Below are positions 18,888 to 32,480 of a stretch of DNA of 64,000 nt, in pieces (position 1 is the first letter of the stretch; the number at the start of each line of letters is the position of its first letter). Made by a program: the position numbers and the translations under genes. The notes beneath the pieces were generated by a model. That model did not search any database. It saw nothing but the letters and a program-made list of their open reading frames with translations, and was not told the DNA's origin. The stretch comes from Linnemannia elongata (lineage: Eukaryota > Mortierellomycota > Mortierellomycetes > Mortierellales > Mortierellaceae): positions 1,166,501 to 1,230,500 of the forward strand of contig JAXBDG010000012.1 in assembly GCA_036320915.1 (NCBI GenBank), written 5' to 3'.

Positions 18888-19787
18888 CTAAAAACAGCAA
18901 ACAGGTGGACTGGGAGGGTTATAATTACAACACGTTTGGGAACAGCAAGCACCGGGGTTCATCAATTCACAAGGATTATCGTCTGCTGTGCATGGTGGTT
19001 GGCATGTACCAGACACACATGTATTGCCGCCACAGCAACCCGCGTTGGTAGGGCCACCACAGGCACCACCGAGTTGAGCGCATGGCACTTGGCATGTACC
19101 GGACACACATGTATTGCCGCCACAGCAACCGACGTTGGAGGGACCGCCACAGGAGCCACCGAGAGCAGAGCATGGTACTTGGCATTTACCGGACACGCAT
19201 GTATTGCCGCCACAGCAACCGACATTGGAGAGACCGCCACAGGTGCCACCGAGAGGAGAGCATTTTGGTTGGCATTTGCCAGAGACACATTTGTTGCCGT
19301 TACAGCAATGTGGCTTGGAGCCGCCACAGCAGCCACCGAGTGGAGAGCATTCCGGTCGGCATTTACCAGACACACACTTGTTGCCGTCACAGCATTTGTG
19401 TCCGGAGTGACCGCCACAGGATCCACCGGAAGAAGAGCACTTTGGTCGGCATTTGCCAGAGACACATTTGTTGCCGTTACAGCAATGGGGCTTGGAGCCG
19501 CCACAGCAGCCACCGAGTGGAGAGCATTCCGGTCGGCATTTACCAGACACACACTTGTTGCCGTCACAGCACTTGTGTCCGGAGTGACCGCCACAGGATC
19601 CACCGGAAGAAGAGCACGGATCGCGACATTTGCCAGAGACACATGTTACACCTTTGGAGCAAGCTTGAAGCGTGTCCTTGATATGACATACGCCTTTGAT
19701 GGTCAAGCATGGCAATGAGGTGGAAGCCACCGCACTGACAGCCAAAACACAGACTGCAACCACTGTGACAAGGAGTTGGATCTTCAT
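18888..19787 (-). CDS. Secreted multi-knottin (cystine-knot repeat) protein
   Basis: An intronless frame of 299 aa with a clear signal peptide (about 1-22, MKIQLLVTVVAVCVLAVSAV). The mature part is seven tandem modules of about 30 residues with spacing C-x6-C-x6/7-CC-x4-C-x4-C, each ending CVSGKC or CVSGTC. A diverged Cys-rich module lies at each end; the last ends in PPVCCF. This is inhibitor-cystine-knot spacing, so six Cys per module probably form three disulfides. Modules 1-2 and 3-4 are nearly identical at DNA level with an A-B order (180-bp period, e.g. 19261-19440 versus 19441-19620), showing recent duplication of a pair. No function can be assigned. Secreted Cys-rich proteins of fungi range from wall proteins and effectors to antimicrobials, and nothing here decides between them. 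The antisense strand is open over the same span, which is a by-product of the repeats. Confidence 0.85.
   Translation of the reverse strand: MKIQLLVTVVAVCVLAVSAVASTSLPCLTIKGVCHIKDTLQACSKGVTCVSGKCRDPCSSSGGSCGGHSGHKCCDGNKCVSGKCRPECSPLGGCCGGSKPHCCNGNKCVSGKCRPKCSSSGGSCGGHSGHKCCDGNKCVSGKCRPECSPLGGCCGGSKPHCCNGNKCVSGKCQPKCSPLGGTCGGLSNVGCCGGNTCVSGKCQVPCSALGGSCGGPSNVGCCGGNTCVSGTCQVPCAQLGGACGGPTNAGCCGGNTCVSGTCQPPCTADDNPCELMNPGACCSQTCCNYNPPSPPVCCF
19261..19620 (-). repeat. Two-unit higher-order tandem repeat inside the knottin gene
   Basis: Two near-identical 180-bp blocks (each encoding two different knottin modules) lie head to tail. The remaining modules toward 18960 are more diverged from each other, so the array has grown by steps of two modules. 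Confidence 0.85.
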
Positions 19788-21120
19788 GCTGTCGACTTAA
19801 TCTAGTGATGGTATGTCGAGTAGGAGATATACCACAAAGATTATAAGAGTTAGCAGGGGTCACCGCAATGAGTGAATAAAGGCCACCATCAAGAACGACA
19901 AGGAATGATGTTAACTACCTTAATGACAGGAGAGAAGAAACAAGGCGAGGAGATTAAAATGAGGAGGGATGCTTTGTATGAAAAGAAGATGATGTGATGG
20001 TGTGCTGTATGATTTTTTATGGAGTTAGGGTATTTGTGCGACCCTTTTATAGCAAGAATGCAACAGTGTAGTGTCCCATCTAACCATGCTCCCATTTAAC
20101 CATCTTCCCTTCTAACCGCCTCTTTCATCGATCCCATCCCTAACAAAACCACCTTCGAACGGCATTGGGAGCCAACTTCAGGGGATGCGGCAATTAATTG
20201 AGGGAAAGACCAATGGATAGCAAGAAATGATGGGGATTTACGGAGCTCTGGAGAAATCGAGGCACTAAATATAGGAGTGGATCAAGGGACGAAATCGAGA
20301 TCTAGGCACGAAAATCAAGACCTAGACACGAAAATCAGGAAATTAAGGTCCAGGCGCAAAGATCTGTTAATTTAAGGAATGGGGGTAAATCAACGGGCGC
20401 TTTTTTTTCTGTTTTGCTTTTGTTTTTTATTTTAAGAAGTTTAAATACATAGAGCATGATTGGTGTCAGTCGTGGGTTCATCGACGAGGGAAGGGGGGGT
20501 TAATGTTTCTCTCTCTGGTGTTTCGTCTCTGATAGCTGGGCTCGACCTTGAGTGATAGCCAAGTCCGCGGAGGCAAGGACGGTCCGTGGTTCAAAGGCAG
20601 TGTGATACCACCAAATGGTGACCAAGGTGGCAACAAGCAGGACTAAGACAGGGCTGTCATCGTGGAGCTTGATGGGGTCGGGGTCTGGGAAAAAGAGGCA
20701 GGTAGTCTGAGGGCCTAACTCGTTCCTCCAGATATCTTGAAGGTGTGCCTTGCCATACACCCGGTTTCTTGGAACAGCTGACGAGGGATGGCGAATCATA
20801 TCCACGTGCGCTTGACAGATTCGACAGACATGAGAGCACATCCGGGAGAAAAGAGAGTACAAAGAAGAGAGGGAGTAAGAGCGGGAGAGACAGACAGACA
20901 GAATGAGAGAGAGAGAGTGAGAGAGAGAGCATGTGTGTGTACGACGGGGTGATGGAAGTGATGGAGTGGTAGTGATCAGACCATTGGCAATGACTGGTAG
21001 CAAGCTTGATCGGCTGGAAGTTCTCCGGTCTTCGACCCCACAATAATAATTTTCTTCCTCACTTCGTTTTCCTCATGTTGCTTAGTGAGACACTCAGTTT
21101 CGTGAATTAACTGTCACGTA
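19788..21120. other. Gene-free interval between knottin gene and Fanzor terminus
   Basis: No gene is supported. About 20290-20340 holds a short repeated CACGAAAATCA motif, and about 20900-20935 is a GA-rich microsatellite. A minus-strand frame at about 20500-20860 encodes a Cys-x3-Cys-x2-Cys string followed by one hydrophobic stretch, but it runs out of a low-complexity Leu/Ser tract and has no recognisable relative. The TA at 21119-21120 borders the next element. Confidence 0.4.
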
Positions 21121-21165
21121 GAGTCTGCGCCAATAAGTCATAGGTTTATATATTTTTAGATTAAG
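21121..21165 (+). repeat. Terminal-inverted-repeat end on the 3' side of the Fanzor gene
   Basis: It directly follows TA at 21119-21120 and starts GAGTCTGCGCCAATAAGTCA, continuing into an A/T-rich stretch. This matches the left end of the MITE at 39164 (GCGCCAAAAAGTCATAGGG) and, over the first 18 bases, the right terminus of the DDE element at 29600 (2 mismatches). It reads inward, toward the Fanzor gene, so it is the left end of an element that contains that gene. An intact partner end with the same inner sequence was not found. Confidence 0.75.
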
Positions 21166-21254
21166 AAAAACAATAGAGTTAGTGAGTGCCAAACTTCTAT
21201 AAAGGCAACAAGCATAGCATCGATTCAAAGACATCTGGCCAAATAATATACCTT
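21166..21254 (-). ncRNA. Candidate guide-RNA scaffold region downstream of the Fanzor stop
   Basis: Only about 134 bp separate the Fanzor stop codon (21255) from the element end (21121). In known TnpB and Fanzor systems the guide RNA scaffold comes from this 3' segment and reads out across the element end into flanking DNA. Here that would be transcribed on the minus strand toward 21120. This is inferred from position only. No fold was computed and no conserved copy exists in the window to compare. Confidence 0.35.
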
Positions 21255-24200
21255 CTACTCTGCCCTCATGGACAGTTCATACGTTGCACGGAGCCACGCC
21301 GTGACATTAGAAAAAGTGGATGATCCAGATATGGAACTGGTGCTATTGGAGAAGGTACTTGTCGAGGGGGTCTCTTGAGAAGATGGACGAGGTGGGCGAG
21401 TGCGGAGGCGGAAGGGAGGCAATGGGTTGTGGTCGTCGGCGAGTATGGTCGTGAATCCTGACAGGGCAATGTTTGCTGCGGCGTTTCTGTCACGATTCTG
21501 GGTTGCGGTTCCACTGTGGAGGAGGGGACAGGAAGGGTTTTGACAAACTACGGCTCCATTGATCCTCACTTCACGAATTGATCCGTTAATTAAACGCCGG
21601 GCTGTTGCGATTTTGACAGACTGAAAGCATATACAACATAGCTTTGATGTCAGGTTCTCGTTGGTAACAGCAACAACACAATGTTGTCTATGTTCCTTAC
21701 GGAACTTGCCCCCTCCCCTGCGGGCATGACCTTGTATGAGTGAACCCACCCCAGCTCCTGCGGCGCCATAGAGGATGATAGGGAGGGCTTTGGGGTTTCT
21801 GAGGAGGCATTGTTTGGTTGGATGGTGACTGTCGAACGGGTGGGAGGACGTATGGTATTGGCTACAATCTGGTAGAGAGCAGAAGCCGTCAATGATTAGT
21901 TGACTGGTGTTGGAACTGGCGTCGGGCTCTCCAGGGGTCGAAGCGGCATCGTCTAGTATACAGTAAAGCGAACAAGTTAGAATTAATATTCCACTCTTGC
22001 TGTCCATTATCATACCTCAAAAGTAGACGTTTTTCTTACCAGCATTCTGGAAGAAATGCCTTTGGCGTGACGCTAGACCGGCGTAAGTCCTTTTGGTCAG
22101 TAGCTCGCGGGTTCTACGGTCCTTCAAGATTGTCTCGTTCCTCTCAAAGTTGCGTAGGGCTGGTCCTGTCGACATCCTTTTGTTTTGAGCCTCGTCAAGT
22201 TCGGTAAATGAGAGAAGGTGCGTGATGGAGTTTTTTGAGAGTTCTTGATGCGCAGCTTTCCACTCTGGAGTAAGTCGCTTGTTTCGTCTCTTTGCAGCCT
22301 TGTTCATGTACGAAAGATGATTGACTTGATTGGCCGTTGTGGTAATGGCAGGCGGAACACTGATGGCGAGTGGCGATTGAGGAACTTGAATGGTAGACGA
22401 ATGATGGTGAACGATAGCGTCGGTATCCTCAGGTTTGTCCTCTGTGGTGTTGTTGTTGTGGTATTGGCGATCGCTGCATTCTGCTTTGGTAGAGTCTTGA
22501 CCATCGTGATCTAGCATATCGGTGTCTTCGCCGTCCTTGACCGCATTTTCGTCTATGTTAGATTGGAATGGTGTGAAATATTAGTAAACATGGTTGGATA
22601 AACTTGAAAGCCCTTATTGTTCGATCGAAAGCTATACTTCCAAACTGTTCTTACCTTGCAGCAATTGGTAAATATTCAACCGGGCCGCAACATCGTGAAG
22701 AGACATTCGTGACGCCTGTAGCATCTTCGCGATGCCCGGGTCAAAGCTGCCTAGCGTCACCGTCCGTGGGTCTCGCGGCATTAGATGGTCCAAGTTAATG
22801 TACTCGGCGTAGTCCTCGTGTTCTGGCCTTTCCCATGATGGATCCCGTCGAGCGTTAGGAGGCTGGGCAGGTGCGTCCTGCTGCGCTTCCGGATCTGGTT
22901 TCGTTTCCTTTGTGAAATGTTGTAGACGCATCCAATAATAGCGGTATGATCGCAGAGTCCTGACCTCCTTCTCTGCCTCCAGGGTCGGCTGTAACTTGGA
23001 ATGATATGCATCCGACTTGTGACGGAAGTCTTCTCGCGCTGTGGACATCTGGACTAGGATCGTATCGGACTTATCTCCTAATCGTCGAGCGCGCGAAATC
23101 TGTCTCTTTTTCCGTGCCGATTCGACCTTGTCTTGGCGTAAAGGCTCCAGCTCGGACCGTAGGAGCTTCAACGTTACCATCGCCTCCTCCAACTCTGATT
23201 CAACCTTGGCGTATTCTTTCTCTACAAGCTCTGTATCCGCGTTCATGGTTCGGACTTCTTGGATCCAGTCAATAGCTGCAGGGGACCTCCTTTTCTTCTT
23301 GGCCTTGCGGCCAACATCAAAGAGGCTGACGACAGGATGGTCCAGCCGTCCTTGTTGACCATGACCTATAGTGGTTCCAATGATCCGCACTCTCAGCTTA
23401 TCGATGTAAATCAGTCTGATATCCAGAAAATGAAAAGAAAATATTAAGAACCTGTACTATGCAGCAAGTTCATCACAAACAAAAGAGCACAGGAGTGTTT
23501 GGCCAAGGGTTACCTGAAGGCGAACTCCATCTGATACTGCTTGCATAATTCATCAATAGCGTGCCGGTTCAAAATGGAGAAGAAGATCCTAGCCTTTTGT
23601 TGGAGAGTTGGTCGATTTCTGATAACGTTGAGGTTGTCGTCGTAGTAGTCAAACTGGTTTTCTTTGCTACTGAATAGTATCTCCGAGAGAGAGGACCGTG
23701 TGAGTGCCAAGGCATGGCGAGAGGAAGGAGATATTTCCGGGGCTAACTGTCGCATTGATCCTGAATATCCAGCAACACGGAAGAACTCGTTTGCCAAGAC
23801 GAGGAACGGTGCTCTCAACGCCACGTGGGCCTCTGCCTTGAACGTATATCCTCCGACGTTTTCCTTGGTCTTGGAATCACTCGACGATTTCGGCAGCTGA
23901 CGTTTCGGAACAAACGGCCTGAGGAGATTGACGAGAGTCGCCACGGTGATGCATTCGGGAGCTGTAGGCGTGATCCCTTTGCAAACTCGTTCCACATAAT
24001 ACGCATCTACTGGTCTCTCAAGAGAGGGAGATTGAAGGAGCATCTTCATGACTGCATGAAGGCCGTTGATCCGATCTGCAGGAGTCTCAGCACCTATTAT
24101 TTATATAAAGATATGTCAGATTCTACATCGCCAACGTAACGCCTTGAACGGTAGACATTCCATACATTACATGACTTCTCACTTACTCATACGTTGTGCC

Positions 24201-27095
24201 TTGATAGATATATGATTGTCCTTGTCTAGTAATGTGGTTAAGCGATCTAAAAATCGAAAAAAAACAAGTACACAAAAGTAGGTTAGTCAACCTCACCAAT
24301 GCATCTGTTTTTTTCAATGAATTTCAGTCTGAAAAAAGTGATAGCATTGACAAGTATGTAATTTGCATCGTTGAGGACGTACCTTCTTCATGATCCACGT
24401 ATTCTGTGGCTAACCAGTCCTGGGCTTCATCAGCACTGGCTCTTGCGATCAAAATGTCCTCCAACTCTGCTCCCAACGCATCAGTGGTCGAGGGCTTGAC
24501 GGCCTTGACAAACTCTTCCTCGATAGTCCCCAGGCGGTTTTCTTGGATTGGAGAAGGCTCGCTCAGTATCATCTGCCGCATAGCTTGTGTCACCACAGCC
24601 AAACGTTCTTCACCCCCCTTGGACTCTGTTCGCCACAGACAGTTGTCGAGGTCGCTCTGCAGCTTTCGACATCGTCTCCACCACTCCTTTCGTGTCAGGC
24701 TCCTTGTATGGTCTTCCTTGTACGTCTCCGGACCTCTTCCTTTCATATCTCCTTTCTCCCATGCAAACTGTTCTTTGATCGGTGTAAGGTGAAGGCGAAG
24801 AATTTTTTTGGTGAAAGTGTTGAAGATTTTATCGAATATACTTCCGTTGAGTAGTTGTTGAAAATCCTGTGCAAGGTCTTTTGTGAACGCATTGATGGTT
24901 TGCTTAAGGCCATAGAGTGGATGGTCTTTTGGTGGGGTAGAGGGGTGTTTTGTCGATAGTTTCCGCAGACAGTCCGACACTTCTTGCCAAAATGGATGCT
25001 CTTCGGAAAAATTGAGCTTGTTGTTGCCGTCTTTGTCCTGCTGGCCAGAATTCACACCCAGGTTCCTGGCGATAAAGAACCGGAATGCCTCGGCTGAGAA
25101 TATATCTCGAAGATCGCATGCCTCCTTGGATTGGTCTTCCTGCTCGATCCATCGCACTACATCTGCATCAAGGGGTGCGATCGGGACTTGGTGAGTTGAA
25201 AACGAGACATCAGAAACTCGGGGTTGGAACCCATCCGGAAAAAGATCTGCCAAGAGGAACCCTTTCGCGTTCTCTATATCAAACTGTCTTGCCGCCTATT
25301 GCAATTCACACAGAACAACAAAGGCTTTGTTAATAACAAAAACTTTCAGTAACATTGGGAGATGCTTCTGATACATAGTAACGCATTTTGTAGGAAGAAA
25401 ATAACTTACCAAGAGTATAATCTTTTGTCCCATAACTGCAGCATTAGACATAAGATCCGTCATAGTATCCTGTCTAGAATTCAAGGCGTCAACAACATGC
25501 CCAAGTTCGTGCTGCAGGTCCGGTCGCAATATTTGGCTCAGGGTCACCGTAATGGATCGATACTGTTGCGAGCCGTCTTCATTGTCCTCGTTGTCCTCGT
25601 CCTCCTCGCCATCATTATCCTGGTGCTCGTCCTTGTCCATATAGCCAGCCCCTGTTTCTGACTGTCCAGTTCTCTTCTCAAAGATGCTTGTCGGTCCGGA
25701 CGAACTTCCGGAGCTGGATGACTGATGGGAGACTGCCGCTGAACGTATTCTCCCACCCCTGTTGACAACATACTGGGATCCGACAACGACGTTCTCCATA
25801 ACTTGCCCCCATCTAGGCTGAAGATGGTCTCGGACGACTTGTCTCCAAACATCAACGCATCCCGTCCTGAACTTATTTCTCACTGTAGCCTCCGTCACGT
25901 GCGGAAACCCCAACTCATCTTTCACCGCCGCCACAAAGCCCTGGAAGTTAATGGGGCTCTTGGTTCTCTCCAGCCAGGTTTTTGTAAGCACGGCCAACTC
26001 CGAATCCTTGATTGATTGCGAGTGACTGTTGGCCTGTAACTTCTTCTTCTGAAGAATACTGGCTCGCTTTTCGACCTCGGTGTTGATAAATTCCTTGCTG
26101 TAACAAAAGGCAACGGAAATAAAATTGTTCAGGAAAAGAAATGACATGCTACCACCTTTGAACAAAGAGGTTGTCTATCATATAACGCCATAAGCCTATA
26201 ACGTTCACTTACCAATGATCCTCGTAGGTACTAATCAGAACAGCCTCCTCCAGATCTATCCATTCTGCATCTCTCTTCCTTCCATTACCGCCATGGGTAC
26301 GGCCGTGCTCGCGATGGGTCGCAGGCGTTGGATGTTCACTGTCCGTAAAGGCGATCGGCAAGGCTTCTTGAGGGGGGTGAAGACGAGGGGTGGCGTGGAC
26401 GGCGAAACCAAGAACAAGATACTCGATGTTTGTCTGAACATGGTCGGCCGCCTTAAGAAAACCAATCGACTTTGTGGTCTTGGAGCAGTTTCTTGGGCTG
26501 TATTTCCTAGCTTTTCCGAGGCTGCTGAATTCATAGACAGTCGCTTGATAATGGTCCGACAGGAACTGGAAAAAGATTGGACCACGATGATCCATCCGCA
26601 TAGTTATCGGCGGTGGGTCGGGAGGGGGACGATTACTGGAGTGTTGGGGAACTGTCCGATTGGCGAATTTGAGAGTAAATAAATGACTTGGTCGCGTTTT
26701 GGATGATATACCCGCATTAAGCATTGTTTGTGCGATGTAGTGAGCGAGCGCCGTTGATGGTGTTTCGGTTTCCAGACGTTGGGTTGTTGCGTTTCGGTCG
26801 GAAAGGATTTGGACGGTCAAGTAATAGTCGAGGAGTCGGTTTTTTGCAGTGGTAACATGTCCATTAAAGTTTTCTTGTTCCATTTGAGTGAAGGCGATTT
26901 CGAACTGTGTGGTTAGGCGTTCGTCCGGATCCAGACGTGGGGCTTCATGAATCCACTTCTCGTCTTGGAGGAGCATAATGCTGTCGGTCTAAATGATTCA
27001 AGAAAAGGACGCCATTAGTTTTTCGTCCGGGTAGTGCCTCTCATTCAAGAAGAATGTGGAGAACGCGTTGCAATTACCAGAATGTATGGGTCCAT
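21255..27095 (-). CDS. Giant Fanzor-like RNA-guided nuclease (TnpB/OrfB homologue), nine exons
   Basis: Nine exons (27078-27095, 26213-26988, 25410-26097, 24383-25295, 24187-24246, 23514-24093, 22655-23415, 22040-22552, 21255-21952) join at GT-AG sites with every phase matching, giving 5,007 nt and about 1,668 aa. The first exon is 18 nt (MDPYIL). The C-terminal third carries the Fanzor/TnpB core. RuvC-I is at TLGSFDPGI (D about 1237). RuvC-II is at VAVTNENLTSKLCCIC (E about 1535). A four-Cys zinc finger (CxxC ... CQNPSC) is followed by RuvC-III at NRDRNAAANIALSG (D about 1591). So all three acidic residues are present. YGAAGAGVG (about 1498-1506) before RuvC-II is also typical. The first thousand residues match nothing I recognise. 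They include an acidic Asp/Glu/Asn-rich segment, a basic string RKAKKKRR (possible nuclear signal) and a coiled coil (about 1065-1110). Known Fanzors are mostly far shorter. An automatic annotation could split this into several hypothetical genes. Confidence 0.85.
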
Positions 27096-27190
27096 GTTTT
27101 GGTGGCGGAATAATGACCTTGAGATGGAACAAGAGTTAGGAAAGGACAAGACATGAGCGGCAGACCACGACCTCATAAATAAACTCGATA
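27096..27190. other. Fanzor upstream gap
   Basis: Only about 95 bp lie between the proposed Fanzor ATG and the TA (27189-27190) that borders the DDE element. The native Fanzor promoter must therefore be very short, lie within the DDE element, or have been displaced by its insertion. Confidence 0.5.
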
Positions 27191-29600
27191 GAGGCCGCGC
27201 CCATAAAGTAACCGACTTACATATTTTTTTGGTTAAGGGGGGTTTCCTTTTTTGGTAAGGGGGAGGGGAAATTGTTTTGACTTTTTAGTTACAAAGAAAG
27301 GAGATAGACATGTCGCGGCGTGGTCTACGGTCAATGAGATGTCCTCTTCCTCTTCCTCTGCAATGGTGGGGTCGACTCCTCCTTCCTCGTCTTCTTTACC
27401 ATCGGGCGTGCGTTCAAAAATGATTCCTCTGTTGTCGGTTTTGTCTTGGTTGTTTACAATATCCACTGTCAGCTTCCACATCTCCCCCGAAAGATCTCCA
27501 AGAACCCACTCGTCATCAAATATGTTGTCGTCAATCTGTTGTTGGTGGTTGTTGTTCATATTGGTGATGTTGTCCATAATGTTGTTGCCATTGCTGGGGA
27601 TGTGTTTATCGCCCTCTTGAACCTCTTCCTCTTCTTCATCACTACTGTCGACTGGGTTCGCGGGGACTATGGACTCTCTAACCTTGACGGCTGCATCCCA
27701 ATAAGCTATCCATGTTTTGATGGTGTCCATCCAAAGAGAAATGAAAGTGGACTGTGGAATACTGTGAAGAAGATGGACCATGGTTCTTTTGAGAGAAAGC
27801 GCGGTGTGGTTGCCATCCGTACTTGATGCGACCTTGTTTTTGATACATCCCCAGACCTTCTCGATCGGCAGTAGCTCGCAGTGATAGGGGGGTGTCTTGC
27901 GAATAATATGGCCTCCGTACTGCTTGGCAATGGTGTAAATGGACCACGTTGATTCTTGAACGTAGGACTTGACCAGGTTCTCATAGTGTTTTTTTCCTTG
28001 GGACCTCGGGCAGGACGTGACCATGTCGATCCATCCAGGCTTTGATATCTGCTTTCTCCACCCACTCCTTCAAATCGGGTAGATTGGCCTTGTTCTTGGG
28101 TTTGGCTGCGGTCTTGTGAAAATGATAAGAGGCGCCATCCAAATGGATCCGACACTTCTCCAAGCCCATCTTTTGCAGGTTTTGGCAGATGTGAGCAAAG
28201 AGGTCATCGAAAGGTTTGGCGGTAAAGTTGCCATGATAATCCATCGTTGGGGCAATGATGCCTGCATCGCGGATCGTTTGAGGGAAATCGTTCCATAGGG
28301 TCTTGTCATGGAGGGTTTTGGAGGTTCCTTTGCTTTTGGTGTGGGTTTGTCCAATCGATGGCCAAATTTAGACGCTCTCGTCGACAAAAGACGACAGGTC
28401 GTCCTCCTTCTCATCGTACCAGACCACAAACGCGGCAAATATGACCAACAGTGGGCTGTGACCAGGCTCGGAAACACGTATCCCAGGGACAATCCAGCGG
28501 GAAGGGGCTGTGTGATCGAGATAGCAATAAGACTCGTCAAGAAACACCTCGGGGAATTTGGGTATCCATACATGCTCGCCCGTTTTGGTTACGTGTGGTG
28601 TGAGGTTGGGGAGCCGTCGTTCAAGGTACCTATTACGATAGGCGATGTTCTGAGGGGTACTATGCAAGATGTTCCGTCGCTTCGTCGAGTTGGCTGAACC
28701 CTTTTTATTGGTTTCCTCCACCATGTCATGAATCGTTTGCATCATCGACTCGTCCCTCTCTTTGTGGGGTCGACCAGGTCGAAGAGCTACAGGCACCTAT
28801 GCAACCAGAAACAAAGCCAGAAATTAATATGTGACAAGAAGAGGAGAAAAAACACAAAGGAAACATGCATATACGCACAACTGGGTTTTCTTGTCTGGTT
28901 AGTCCAATTGCTATTGAACATGCTTGCTTTCCAGTGCCAGTGAGTGCTTGGAGAGACCGGGCGGTATCAAAATGACCTTTACTGTCTTTCCAAGCTCGTC
29001 GAACCAACTGAGCACCTCAGAAGGTGCGCTGACAATAGCTAGGTATATTTTCCCGATGATACAGTATTCGTTCTGGGTGATAGAGACATTCTGTCGGTTA
29101 AGGAATACGGGCGGGGGGAGCTTTGGCTTGGGCTGAGGAGGGGCGGGTATATCCTCAGAAGTGAGAAATGGGTCCTCGCTGGTTGTAGCGTTATTATTGC
29201 TAGTCGAGGTGAGGTCTCGAAGGCGTTGGGAAGACACCTTTGGCGAATAATATGGGGAGGTGTTAAACTAGCGACGCAGTTCGCGTCCAGAGGACGAACG
29301 CGAGCTACGTGTGCTAGAGGGAGGAGATGTGGACGCCACTTTTGATCGCCATTGACTCGATCGCCGTTCCGGAGTCGTTGGGTTGGAGTTCAGGGGGCTG
29401 GTTTCGATCATAGTAAGATAGAGGGATGTTGAGGTGAAAGGGATGATTGTACGGACGATTCACTCTTTCGTCTGGGTATAATTGACCCCTCTGCGCAAAA
29501 CACCATGGGTGGTGACATCTGATTTGACAGTCCCTTAATTTTGATTCATTGGCATTCAATCAAAAAAATATGTAAGTCGGTCACTTATTGGCGCGGCCTC
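27191..29600 (-). mobile_element. Tc1/mariner-superfamily (DDE_3) DNA transposon with TA target duplication
   Basis: The left end (27191, GAGGCCGCGCCCATAAAGTA) and the right end (29600, read inward GAGGCCGCGCCAATAAGTGA) are inverted repeats matching for about 40 bp, continuing into CCGACTTACATATTTTTTT on both sides. TA flanks both ends (27189-27190 and 29601-29602), the signature of this superfamily. The element holds one degenerate transposase gene on the minus strand. Confidence 0.88.
27233..29237 (-). pseudogene. DDE_3-type transposase, interrupted
   Basis: The minus strand reads, in order: an HTH-like segment with FDTARSLQALTGTGKQA; an intron ending GCATAG; then VALRPGRPHKERDE, NKKGSANSTKRRNI and FPEVFLDESYCYLDHT. 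A stop (TAA near 28369) follows within ESV*IWPSIGQ. The same frame continues through TMDYHGNFTAKPFDDLFAHI and CRIHLDGASYHFHK (second catalytic Asp). A one-base shift at an A run near 27988 is followed by HYENLVKSYVQESTW and CELLPIEKVWGCIKN (catalytic Glu), with a long acidic tail. The catalytic D-D-E residues remain visible, but one nonsense codon and one frameshift break the gene. The exon structure before about 29007 is unresolved. Confidence 0.8.
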
Positions 29601-29602
29601 TA

Positions 29603-32480
29603 CCGATGTCTCGTCTACTATCTTTGACGGAGCCTAAGCGATCTTCGCTGTTTTGAGGGTCACCCGCATCAACATCGACTTTATTAGGAAATGAGTCCTG
29701 CCCAACCACAGAGGCATAGGCTCGCCTACCACAGGCAGAGTGGACCTGAGAGGACCTTATAAAGTAACACAAACGAGCACTTATTTTCCACGCAATTTGG
29801 CACTTTTTTTTCTCACTTGCATCTTGCATCCCTTGACCATTCACCATACCATTCCATTCACCTCTTTCTTTCATCCTTCTCCTCTCATCAAACCTAGTCA
29901 TACCTCTACCTCTTCACCTCTACACCACTGACTGTACACCACAGTCACACTCCTTATTCGTTCCTCACACCATTCCTCCTGTCGACAAGACTTCCTCCTC
30001 TCACTTCTCGTTACTCCTCCTCTTCACTTCCTCCTCCCGCATACGCATACACATCAATGATCTCCTCGTCTTCTGCCATTGGAAAAAGAAATGCGCCGAT
30101 AAGTGACCGAGAGCAGCGAGCATAACGACGCCGGGCACTGATAGCAGCAGAACAGCATCGCGCAGGGACCAGCAAATACAACGTCAGGAACAGTAAGAGC
30201 AGGAGCAGCAATATCAACAGGAACAATGGGCTGGTTAGCCAAGGTCAAATTCAGGTACGATTCTCAAAAAGTGTTCGTTTTATTAGGGGTTGTCAAAGTA
30301 CTGCCAAATCCAAAATAAATCCGCCGCTCGTTTGCGCATTTGACACTTCTCTGTCACCTTCACAGGCTTTCTAGTACAAAAATGCGAACGCACAAACCTA
30401 CGACCCTCGAAGTATTTCGCAAACACAAGGTGCGCGTTCGGCAGTGACAGAAATAGTCAAACGAGAAGAAAATAATAAAAACCCTTTTTCCTCCAGGAGA
30501 GTCAAAAACCATTTCATCTACTTCTCTCACAACCAATTGGGCATACCTCTTCCCCTCATTCCACCTACACCATGGTTCCTATCAAGAACAACAAGAACGT
30601 CCAACCCAAACCCACTCGTCGTGCAAAAGGCCATCGCGTCTCTCTTGATCCCCAAGAATATCAGCCTTTAAGCACAGCAATTAAGACCACACAACAAGAA
30701 AAGAGCAACCCCACCCATTTCTGTCAACCTTGTGTGTAACAATTTCTTGGTGCGTCTCCCTAGAGAAAAAAAAAAGGGCAAAAAGGGGCCAAATGGTCGT
30801 GATTTGATTACGTGAAAATGGATACTCGAAAAGAATACGAAAATGAGTACTCCCCTTTTGCGTGTCTTGAAATACGCCCAGTCCCATTTCACGCCGTCTG
30901 GCAAGATATTTGACGATCCGTATTGTCCGCCTCGGCTTGAAAGTACATGCACGCCAAATCCATTCATTCATTGTCATTGCCTAAGAGTGCCACGCAAATG
31001 ATCGAAGCGAACAATTGACGCTGAGGGAGACCGACCCACAAAACTGAATAATATGAGCATCCTTTCCTTCTCTACCTGCTTGGTTTGGGCTTGAACTCGA
31101 TGAGTACGAGTGTCAGAGACTGATGGACCAAAGAGGGAGAAGAAGGTTGGAAGGCAGACATCATGTCCTAAAATGAGGGTGTTCGTTATTACTTCCTTGA
31201 GTGAGGTGAAATAAACCTCACTGGCTGGCTGGCATTGGACCGACCATCAAGTGAAGTCAACCTTAACGGGTTTAATGGGTTTATTGGTTCCGCTTCGAGG
31301 TATGAGCACACACAATCGTACACCTCCCCTGTTTTCTTCAGAGGTTATTTCTGACTGTATTTAACGTAGCAAGAGGTTTGACAACACTGGCACGCTCAAA
31401 GTGTGTAGTGCATCCAGTTTCTAAAGAAAGCATCGATAATTAAATCCCCAAGTCCTGCTACGACACTAAGGGCGGTTGGATTGGATTCGGTTGACATGTT
31501 GGTCGAGGCAAGTTAAATGAATCTAAACAAGTTGAATGAATCAAGTGGAATGAGTGGATTCGGAGGGAGGGATCATGGACAAGAGTAACTGAATTCGGAG
31601 ATGAAAGGAGAGATGGGAAAAGAGATGGGGAAAGAAAAGGTTGACAGAGGGAGGAGGAAGACACACTGGGATGTTTTATTTTCGTGCACTTCTTGGCCGC
31701 CATTGGATGTTAGTTGGTCTTCTTATGTCTATGCGTCTCGGTGTATGAGCATGGACGACCTGTCCCTTGTGTTTTCCTCTTCTTTCTCCTTTTTGCATCG
31801 CAATAGGCGTTGTCCCCCTTTTCTTCCGTTTAATGGGATGATAGCCTCTGGGCTGGTTTATTTAAACTTGAGGATCAGAAAGATATACTTTAAACTGGGG
31901 TGAAGAAGCGAATGGGTAACAAGTCCCGTATGTCTCCAGAAAAAGGGGGCAGAGTGAAGACGAGTAATGACACTACACGGTACGTCTTCGTCTTGTTCCT
32001 ATCTGGTCCCTGTCGAGCTTTTCTATGACAGCCAGCCTGTGACGCACCTCCCTTCAATCTTAGGTTTGGTATGTGACACCTGAGCCGAGGAGCAACCCTT
32101 TGTCTCTCCTTCACTTTTCTTCTGCAACCTGAACTCCCGACTGTACTTGCCGCGCAAAGGATGTAGGAGATCACCGAGCGAAGGATGGATGGTGGAGCCC
32201 TTACTGAATGATTAGCAGAAGAGGAAATAGTCGTAGGTGAGAATCATGTTTGACCATGAAGACAAGAAAGGTGCACGTATCATAGATTTTTCCTGTGCGG
32301 AATCTGATCTACTCACACATAAGCAGCTGGAGAAAAAACATAAATATTAGACGGCACTCGTTTAGCAGTGTGGGAAAATGGGCATCCAGCAGACATCTGA
32401 AACCAAGTACAGAAGAGGACCCCTCAATGGTATTCGTCATCTCTTGCCGATTATAAATTAAAATGATTACCAACGATCTA
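29603..32480. other. 2.9-kb gene-free interval
   Basis: No gene or RNA could be supported. About 29800-30050 is strongly pyrimidine-rich on the plus strand (CTCC/TTCC runs). About 30300-30460 has imperfect inverted segments around CTCGTTTG and CAAACGAG, too weak to call an element. The remaining short frames are low-complexity or antisense noise. Confidence 0.4.

Follow-up and report, generated by a model that had tools for sequence, protein, structure and literature searches.

A giant Fanzor-like gene carried by a Tc1/mariner-type element in the fungus Linnemannia elongata

The stretch of DNA analysed here, in the following called the window, comprises 64,000 nucleotides from Linnemannia elongata (Mortierellaceae; contig JAXBDG010000012.1 of assembly GCA_036320915.1, positions 1,166,501 to 1,230,500). 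Its minus strand carries at 21255-27095 a gene of nine exons, separated by GT-AG introns, which join in frame to 5,007 nt, that is 1,668 codons and a stop. This bears out a preliminary description, made from the letters alone, which had proposed nine minus-strand exons joining in phase to about 1,668 codons without a stop. The gene product resembles the Fanzor RNA-guided nucleases, and the gene lies within a transposon of the Tc1/mariner type, bounded by terminal inverted repeats (TIRs). The features of the locus, including a putative guide-RNA scaffold formed by the 3′ untranslated region (3′ UTR) and the right TIR, are the following:

21118..29604, minus strand: whole Tc1/mariner-type element of 8.49 kb (limits set by homology), in the order TIR, DDE transposase, internal TIR copy, giant Fanzor-like gene, TIR
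29564..29604, minus strand: left TIR, begins GTAGAGGCCGCGCC; TA target duplication inside G-TA-C
27233..28796, minus strand: DDE_3 / IS630-Tc1-mariner-type transposase, broken (102-nt deletion compared to both sister copies, in-frame stop, frame change)
27185..27234, minus strand: internal TIR-like copy between transposase and Fanzor-like gene, oriented as the right end; present in both sisters
21255..27095, minus strand: giant Fanzor-like gene, 9 exons, 1,668 amino acids (aa)
27078..27095, minus strand: exon 1, 18 nt, start uncertain
26213..26988, minus strand: exon 2, leader without convincing profile match
25410..26097, minus strand: exon 3
24383..25295, minus strand: exon 4
24187..24246, minus strand: exon 5, 60 nt, shortened by an exon-chain model
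23514..24093, minus strand: exon 6
22655..23415, minus strand: exon 7, RuvC-I with D1237 (SFDPGI) preceded by a charged stretch
22040..22552, minus strand: exon 8, a low-complexity part followed by conserved sequence that lies between RuvC-I and RuvC-II
21255..21952, minus strand: exon 9, RuvC-II with E1535, C4 zinc finger, RuvC-III with D1591, low-complexity tail
21118..21157, minus strand: right TIR, ending GGCGCAGACTCTAC
21116..21254, minus strand: putative guide-RNA scaffold at the 3′ side (3′ UTR, right TIR and TA), by analogy with passages of PMC10711439; the guide itself would come from the flank below 21116

The exon-chain model recovered exons 2-4 and 6-9 exactly, gave a shorter exon 5 and added upstream sequence and exons to reach 1,840 aa in total. 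It is not fully independent, because it was trained on the coding sequence of the window gene itself. Throughout the three copies of the element in the genome the splice-site pairs are GT-AG (24 out of 24, from 8 introns in each of 3 copies). The ATG of exon 1 is kept in all three copies, and an in-frame methionine at residue 11 could be an alternative start. Less certain, too, is the acceptor of exon 7, at which a model deposited for L. elongata gains 12 residues, as if a site 36 nt upstream were used. The deposited models P0001, P0002 and P0017 are fragments annotated as hypothetical proteins. P0001 (L. elongata, 638 aa) covers residues 818-1436, carries the 12 additional residues at intron 6 and ends by read-through into intron 8; P0002 (Mortierella sp. 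GBA39, 328 aa) begins in exon 8. The deposited L. elongata proteins agree with the window protein at 95.7% over residues 818-1436 and at 97.2% over residues 1496-1602. Such fragmentary models, one with a different acceptor and one beginning only in exon 8, would fit two or more neighbouring genes that have been mistakenly joined here, which we consider very improbable: divergent relatives carry the homologous stretches in identical order, the Mortierella model crosses the exon 8-9 join in frame, and the introns are kept in all three copies.

These copies (window, C29 and C12) are 97.6-98.3% identical, the C29 and C12 copies sharing 97.7% and 97.6% nucleotide identity, respectively, with that of the window. 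The homology with both sisters spans the window from 29604/29609 to 21117/21118 and ends there in both. All three insertions have the form GG-TA-[element]-TA-C, consistent with a TA duplication at a GTAC target; because the TA lies within G-TA-C in all three, the G-TA-C bases may be part of the TIR. The transposase is encoded upstream of the Fanzor-like gene on the same strand. An intact transposase (526 aa) is found only in the C29 copy, where it matches PF13358 (DDE_3) with 31.6 bits (cut-off 28.6), HTH_32 below cut-off and an IS630 profile with E 8e-14, below that profile's cut-off. An intact Fanzor-like open reading frame (ORF) is found only in the window: the C29 copy has a 159-nt deletion and a stop at codon 147, the C12 copy a stop at codon 638 as well as a broken transposase. 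Searching the genome with the right end returned three places, which are the three copies, and the left end returned these copies together with the internal TIR of each; these end searches gave no stand-alone mariner copies beyond those. Relatives of the transposase elsewhere in the genome are distant, partial and mostly broken. No empty site was found for the window insertion: its right flank is an old fragment of another element of the giant family, with homology that begins only 45 bases past the insertion, and its left flank has no convincing match. A host-tamed copy, one of the options of the preliminary description, does not agree with a gene that sits in a mariner-type element of which two nearly identical sister insertions exist, and we dismissed a host-tamed single-copy gene on the grounds of the three element copies.

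For the three pairs of copies we obtained ratios of nonsynonymous to synonymous change (dN/dS) of 0.33, 0.28 and 0.38, and the nonsynonymous share of the differences is 0.54, 0.49 and 0.57, compared to an expected 0.77. Judged by these ratios, constraint has acted in the history of the copies, which does not imply a present-day function of the window copy. The selection to stay coding suggested earlier, together with the synonymous/non-synonymous comparison proposed as a check on it, is in this respect borne out as past purifying selection (dN/dS 0.28-0.38). That the window copy is a decaying relic, intact by chance and idle today, which would be compatible with an active family, seems to us rather unlikely, although the Fanzor-like gene is prematurely stopped and the transposase broken in two out of three copies each. 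Nine exons with 1,668 open codons speak against it, as does a nonsynonymous fraction far under the neutral expectation, though the latter could be explained by selection on source copies.

The split RuvC and the four-Cys zinc finger with D1237, E1535 and D1591, which the preliminary description had recognised, are present in the sequence at these positions: D1237 in SFDPGI, E1535 in VTNENLTSKLCCIC, the cysteines 1542, 1545, 1573 and 1578, and D1591 in NRDRNAA. According to passages of PMC10711439 the derived signatures of Fanzors are DPG and an alternative catalytic Glu, whereas TnpB typically has D-hydrophobic-G, with its Glu some 50 residues ahead of the zinc finger. The window protein, which has the RuvC with zinc ribbon in common with TnpB and Cas12, shows the Fanzor1 features, namely DPG at RuvC-I (D1237-P-G), the alternative Glu six residues before the first zinc-finger Cys (E1535, C1542), and a C4 zinc finger followed by RD. 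The pattern DPG..ExxxxxxCxxC..C..C..RD, with spacings picked after the sequence had been seen, is found a single time in the protein and never in 20,000 shuffles. D-P-G, TNE..TS..C..C, C..C and RD are invariant in four divergent members (alignment A1, 4/4). In the wider alignment A4 (38 rows: 36 of 44 homologue matches, P0001 and the window exon) the catalytic Glu is conserved in 37 of 37 covering rows, D1591 in 33 of 35 and the four cysteines in 35/36, 34/35, 35/37 and 34/36. Left out of A4 as short or of low coverage were P0041, P0042, P0044, P0046 and P0048-P0051, and DAG/DDG matches in P0001 and P0026 are not RuvC-I and were not counted.

For comparison with known structures we used a wide profile, A5, of 28 rows (26 of the 44 homologue matches, P0001 and the window exon). 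Of its eight matches in the PDB, PpFz1 (Parasitella Fanzor1) comes first with E 0.0022 and SpuFz1 (Spizellomyces Fanzor1) second with E 0.0035, both values above the default threshold of the tool (0.001), and the alignment to both covers the catalytic Glu, the four Cys and RD. Cas12f is a weak match (E 0.018). Against three members of a second Fanzor1-like family of the same genome, which is positive for PF07282 (TNB), A5 gave E 3.1e-4 and a probability of 39.5%, and none of 60 column shuffles scored as high. By these profiles the relation to fungal Fanzor1 appears weak but specific. The wide profile therewith places Fanzor1 on top in the PDB, PF07282, the TnpB zinc-ribbon model, staying below its cut-off: it matched 3 of 4, 5 of 6 (A3 members) and 8 of 10 (further homologues), with all scanned members below cut-off.

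Searching the genome with the window protein gave 51 matching stretches, which belong to at least 18 loci, made up of the three nearly identical copies and fifteen that are divergent (a hand tally and lower bound; a merging script gave 17, with two C7 loci joined). The divergent L047 is 24% identical to the window protein over residues 508-1431. Four relatives were modelled at 1,508 (L046), 1,658 (L047), 1,594 (L048) and 1,414 aa (L049), lengths that are approximate, since the splicing was done by computer with a model that had itself been trained on the window gene. Known errors are wrong C-termini in L046 and L049, first exons in L047 that quit a long open frame for a different one, and a dubious run of lysines ahead of RuvC-I in L048. 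With 89% identity over the greater part of their extent, L046 and L049 count as a single subfamily. Protein searches returned 7 and 44 relatives, so that the relatives in Mortierella-type genomes which the preliminary description had suggested to look for do exist in Linnemannia and Mortierella species. Among the named sources are L. elongata, L. gamsii, L. zychae and Mortierella species, as well as Funneliformis mosseae with one protein and Backusella circina with another (E 6e-7); by these names, homologues are present in Mortierellomycota and, with one protein each, in Glomeromycota and Mucoromycota. One scan of IMG/VR with one pattern gave no viral relatives, a full-length protein search gave no match among 8,000 scored candidates, and in the open-access literature searched we found no paper pairing Fanzor with Mortierella, Linnemannia or XPG. 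Since relatives in the same genome share the extra length, the protein probably belongs to a large and so far little-studied branch of the Fanzor family and is not a one-off.

Not all members of the giant family appear to share the mariner carrier. In L047-type elements (L047/L056 on C28, right end about 2243077, and the C9 copy L066) the right end TTCTGG lies a few bases past the stop codon, and the left end of the C9 copy is TTTCTGG. No TIRs were detected in them, the best inverted match being 8 nt as compared to 21 nt for the window element in the same test. We take these ends as a hint of a recombinase-type element (Crypton- or IS607-like) as a candidate carrier. In a repeated stretch beside an L047-type element, L056 (C28:2232400-2236560, minus strand) has a 723-aa ORF with the look, by eye, of a RecQ-type helicase. 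A truncated left-end fragment of an L047-type element also adjoins the window element (window 29650-30074, plus strand; 29728-30074 is 88.7% identical).

At 1,668 aa the window protein is, as the preliminary description had stressed, far larger than characterised Fanzors, which for Fanzor1 are mostly of 600-700 aa according to passages of PMC11423790. Before RuvC-I there are a leader (residues ~1-440) and a region of about 790 residues (441-1236). An extension without recognisable domain had been noted earlier, and neither region has a convincing Pfam or PDB match, the leader having been profiled over about its first 205 residues. The best N-terminal matches, to zf-C4H2 and DUF7380, are weak (E 0.01, one member each). 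Aligned with the corresponding part of the TNB-positive family, region 441-1242 gave E 0.057, which is not significant and at most hints at a contained recognition/wedge region. An OTU-like leader, an idea by eye only, is supported by no profile, and an XPG-like leader found no match to the XPG-like domain of the second family (E 0.73). As divergent relatives are modelled at about 1,500-1,660 aa, the long N-terminus is, on these models, a family trait. A fused partner domain, one of the options proposed earlier, is ruled out as private to this gene because divergent relatives share the length.

The genome holds 54 matches to PF07282 (TNB), 53 of them over cut-off, and the window gene is not among them. 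Upstream of 34 of these 54, on the same strand and at a median distance of 3.15 kb, lies an XPG/FEN1-like exon. These 34 exons make up most of the 39 XPG/FEN1-like matches; the controls gave two on the opposite strand and three downstream. XPG_I reached 20.7 bits in L010 (cut-off 24.9), L009 and L012 have weaker XPG_I_2 matches only, and a PDB search with the XPG-like stretch of L012 found nothing. The TNB-positive family is a possible fusion of two nucleases, with an XPG assignment below Pfam cut-offs. It resembles the window family in the alternative Glu of most copies (Lys in L012), the zinc finger, RD, the multi-copy state and a long N-terminus, but differs in being over the Pfam cut-off, in having TDG, in reading DGG or DLG at RuvC-I where the window family reads DPG, and in its N-terminal exon of XPG/FEN1-like character.

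With SpuFz1 and PpFz1, its best PDB matches, the window protein shares DPG at RuvC-I, the alternative Glu before the finger, C4, RD and the life as transposon cargo; its size and the lack of TDG set it apart. Passages of PMC3627910 (Bao and Jurka 2013) describe the Tc1/mariner Fanzor1 elements PGv-1 and PUl-1, which like the window element combine a mariner-type transposase and a Fanzor with TIRs and TA duplications, whereas the window element has a much larger Fanzor protein and an internal third TIR copy. Its host group, the Mortierellaceae, is not among the fungi tabulated there. In our view this cargo gene of a Tc1/mariner-type transposon in a Mortierellaceae fungus probably encodes a divergent and greatly enlarged RNA-guided nuclease of the Fanzor1 lineage. 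By analogy with known systems, the 3′ end of the mRNA or a transcript across the right TIR would supply the guide RNA, with the guide coming from flanking DNA. The protein would then cut the matching empty site left by excision, beside a predicted target-adjacent motif (TAM) GGTA, and repair would restore the element, so that cutting the vacated donor site would help the element to be retained. GGTA is predicted because GG precedes TA in all three insertions, just as CA precedes the left repeat in SpuFz1 elements, the TAM of which is CATA according to passages of PMC10432273. The leader of about 440 residues and the roughly 790 residues before RuvC-I may form an enlarged recognition/wedge lobe, possibly with extra contacts to protein or nucleic acid; for AsCas12a, a passage of PMC10432273 reports a REC insertion of about 900 residues.

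Several observations weigh against this interpretation. The window protein reaches only 13.6-16.6 bits with PF07282 (cut-off 26.3), PF14354 (zinc-ribbon-like) outscored PF07282 in 5 out of 10 homologues, and on the RuvC stretch of the window protein an unrelated glycosyl-hydrolase model is nearly equal (E 0.0098 vs 0.0091). Neither phmmer nor the narrow profiles A1 and A3 found a Fanzor in the PDB, the third solved Fanzor1, GtFz1, is missing from the matches of A5, A1 gave a probability of 5% against the TNB-positive family, and region 441-1242 matches no Fanzor by profile. With all single-sequence Pfam scores under curated cut-offs and other models scoring similarly, the protein might be a zinc-ribbon protein of other descent with a D/E/D by chance. 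We think this hardly credible given the order and conservation of the motifs, and the best PDB matches of the wide profile are fungal Fanzor1 structures. Further, the published D-X(125,275)-[TS][TS] spacing does not apply, the window protein having 301 from D1237. Its D-E distance is 298, compared to 158 in SpuFz1 (D383, E541; passages of PMC11423790). Since the homologues P0021, P0025, P0028 and P0032, which have the whole RuvC in one reading frame, show a D-E distance of 169-172, close to that of SpuFz1, the excess looks like an insertion in the subfamily of the window protein. TDG, which passages of PMC10711439 assign to the WED domain of Fanzor1, is absent from the window protein and from three of the four modelled relatives; the lone TDG, at residue 654 of L048, need not be the WED site. 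We therefore file the window protein, by its sequence features, as a divergent member of the Fanzor1 lineage which lacks the published TDG and motif spacing and stays under the Pfam cut-off.

Further points also tell against the main interpretation. The GGTA motif is drawn from three insertions and might reflect a target preference of the transposase instead, the 3′ region gives no folding signal (fold z = +0.37), both sister copies have broken Fanzor-like ORFs, and the genome search (three 3′ ends) revealed no solo-end "ghost" copies. A protein derived from Fanzor1 could have lost RNA guidance and serve the mariner element otherwise, for instance by acting as a cofactor of transposition or as a nuclease that needs no guide. 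The extreme divergence, the missing TDG, a 3′ end without folding signal and the long region without known domain would all suit such a protein, but nearly all aligned homologues keep the catalytic residues and homologues extend to other phyla, and we regard it as unlikely.

Two further observations concern the surroundings of the element. Outside of it, 18 nt at window 30093-30110 are 94% complementary to its own TIR. A Cys-rich tandem-repeat ORF of 302 aa with DNA repeat periods of 90 and 177 nt lies nearby (18888-19796, minus strand).

If the interpretation as an RNA-guided nuclease of the Fanzor1 lineage is correct, the window gene would be an intact candidate for biochemistry with a direct prediction, namely a GGTA TAM and a guide from the right flank. 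More tentatively, and with somewhat less than even confidence, we suggest that early-diverging fungi may possess a distinct clade of giant RNA-guided nucleases in which RuvC is preceded by more than 1,200 residues and which two or more dissimilar types of element have spread (mariner with TIRs, and one without detected TIRs), and a second clade that adds an XPG/FEN1-like domain. If true, a recognition lobe of a new kind, or a built-in partner domain, could be present in the giant clade. How far a recognition lobe can grow would be seen from a conserved multi-copy clade of Mortierellaceae proteins of about 1,500-1,670 residues that has relatives in one arbuscular mycorrhizal and one mucoralean fungus.

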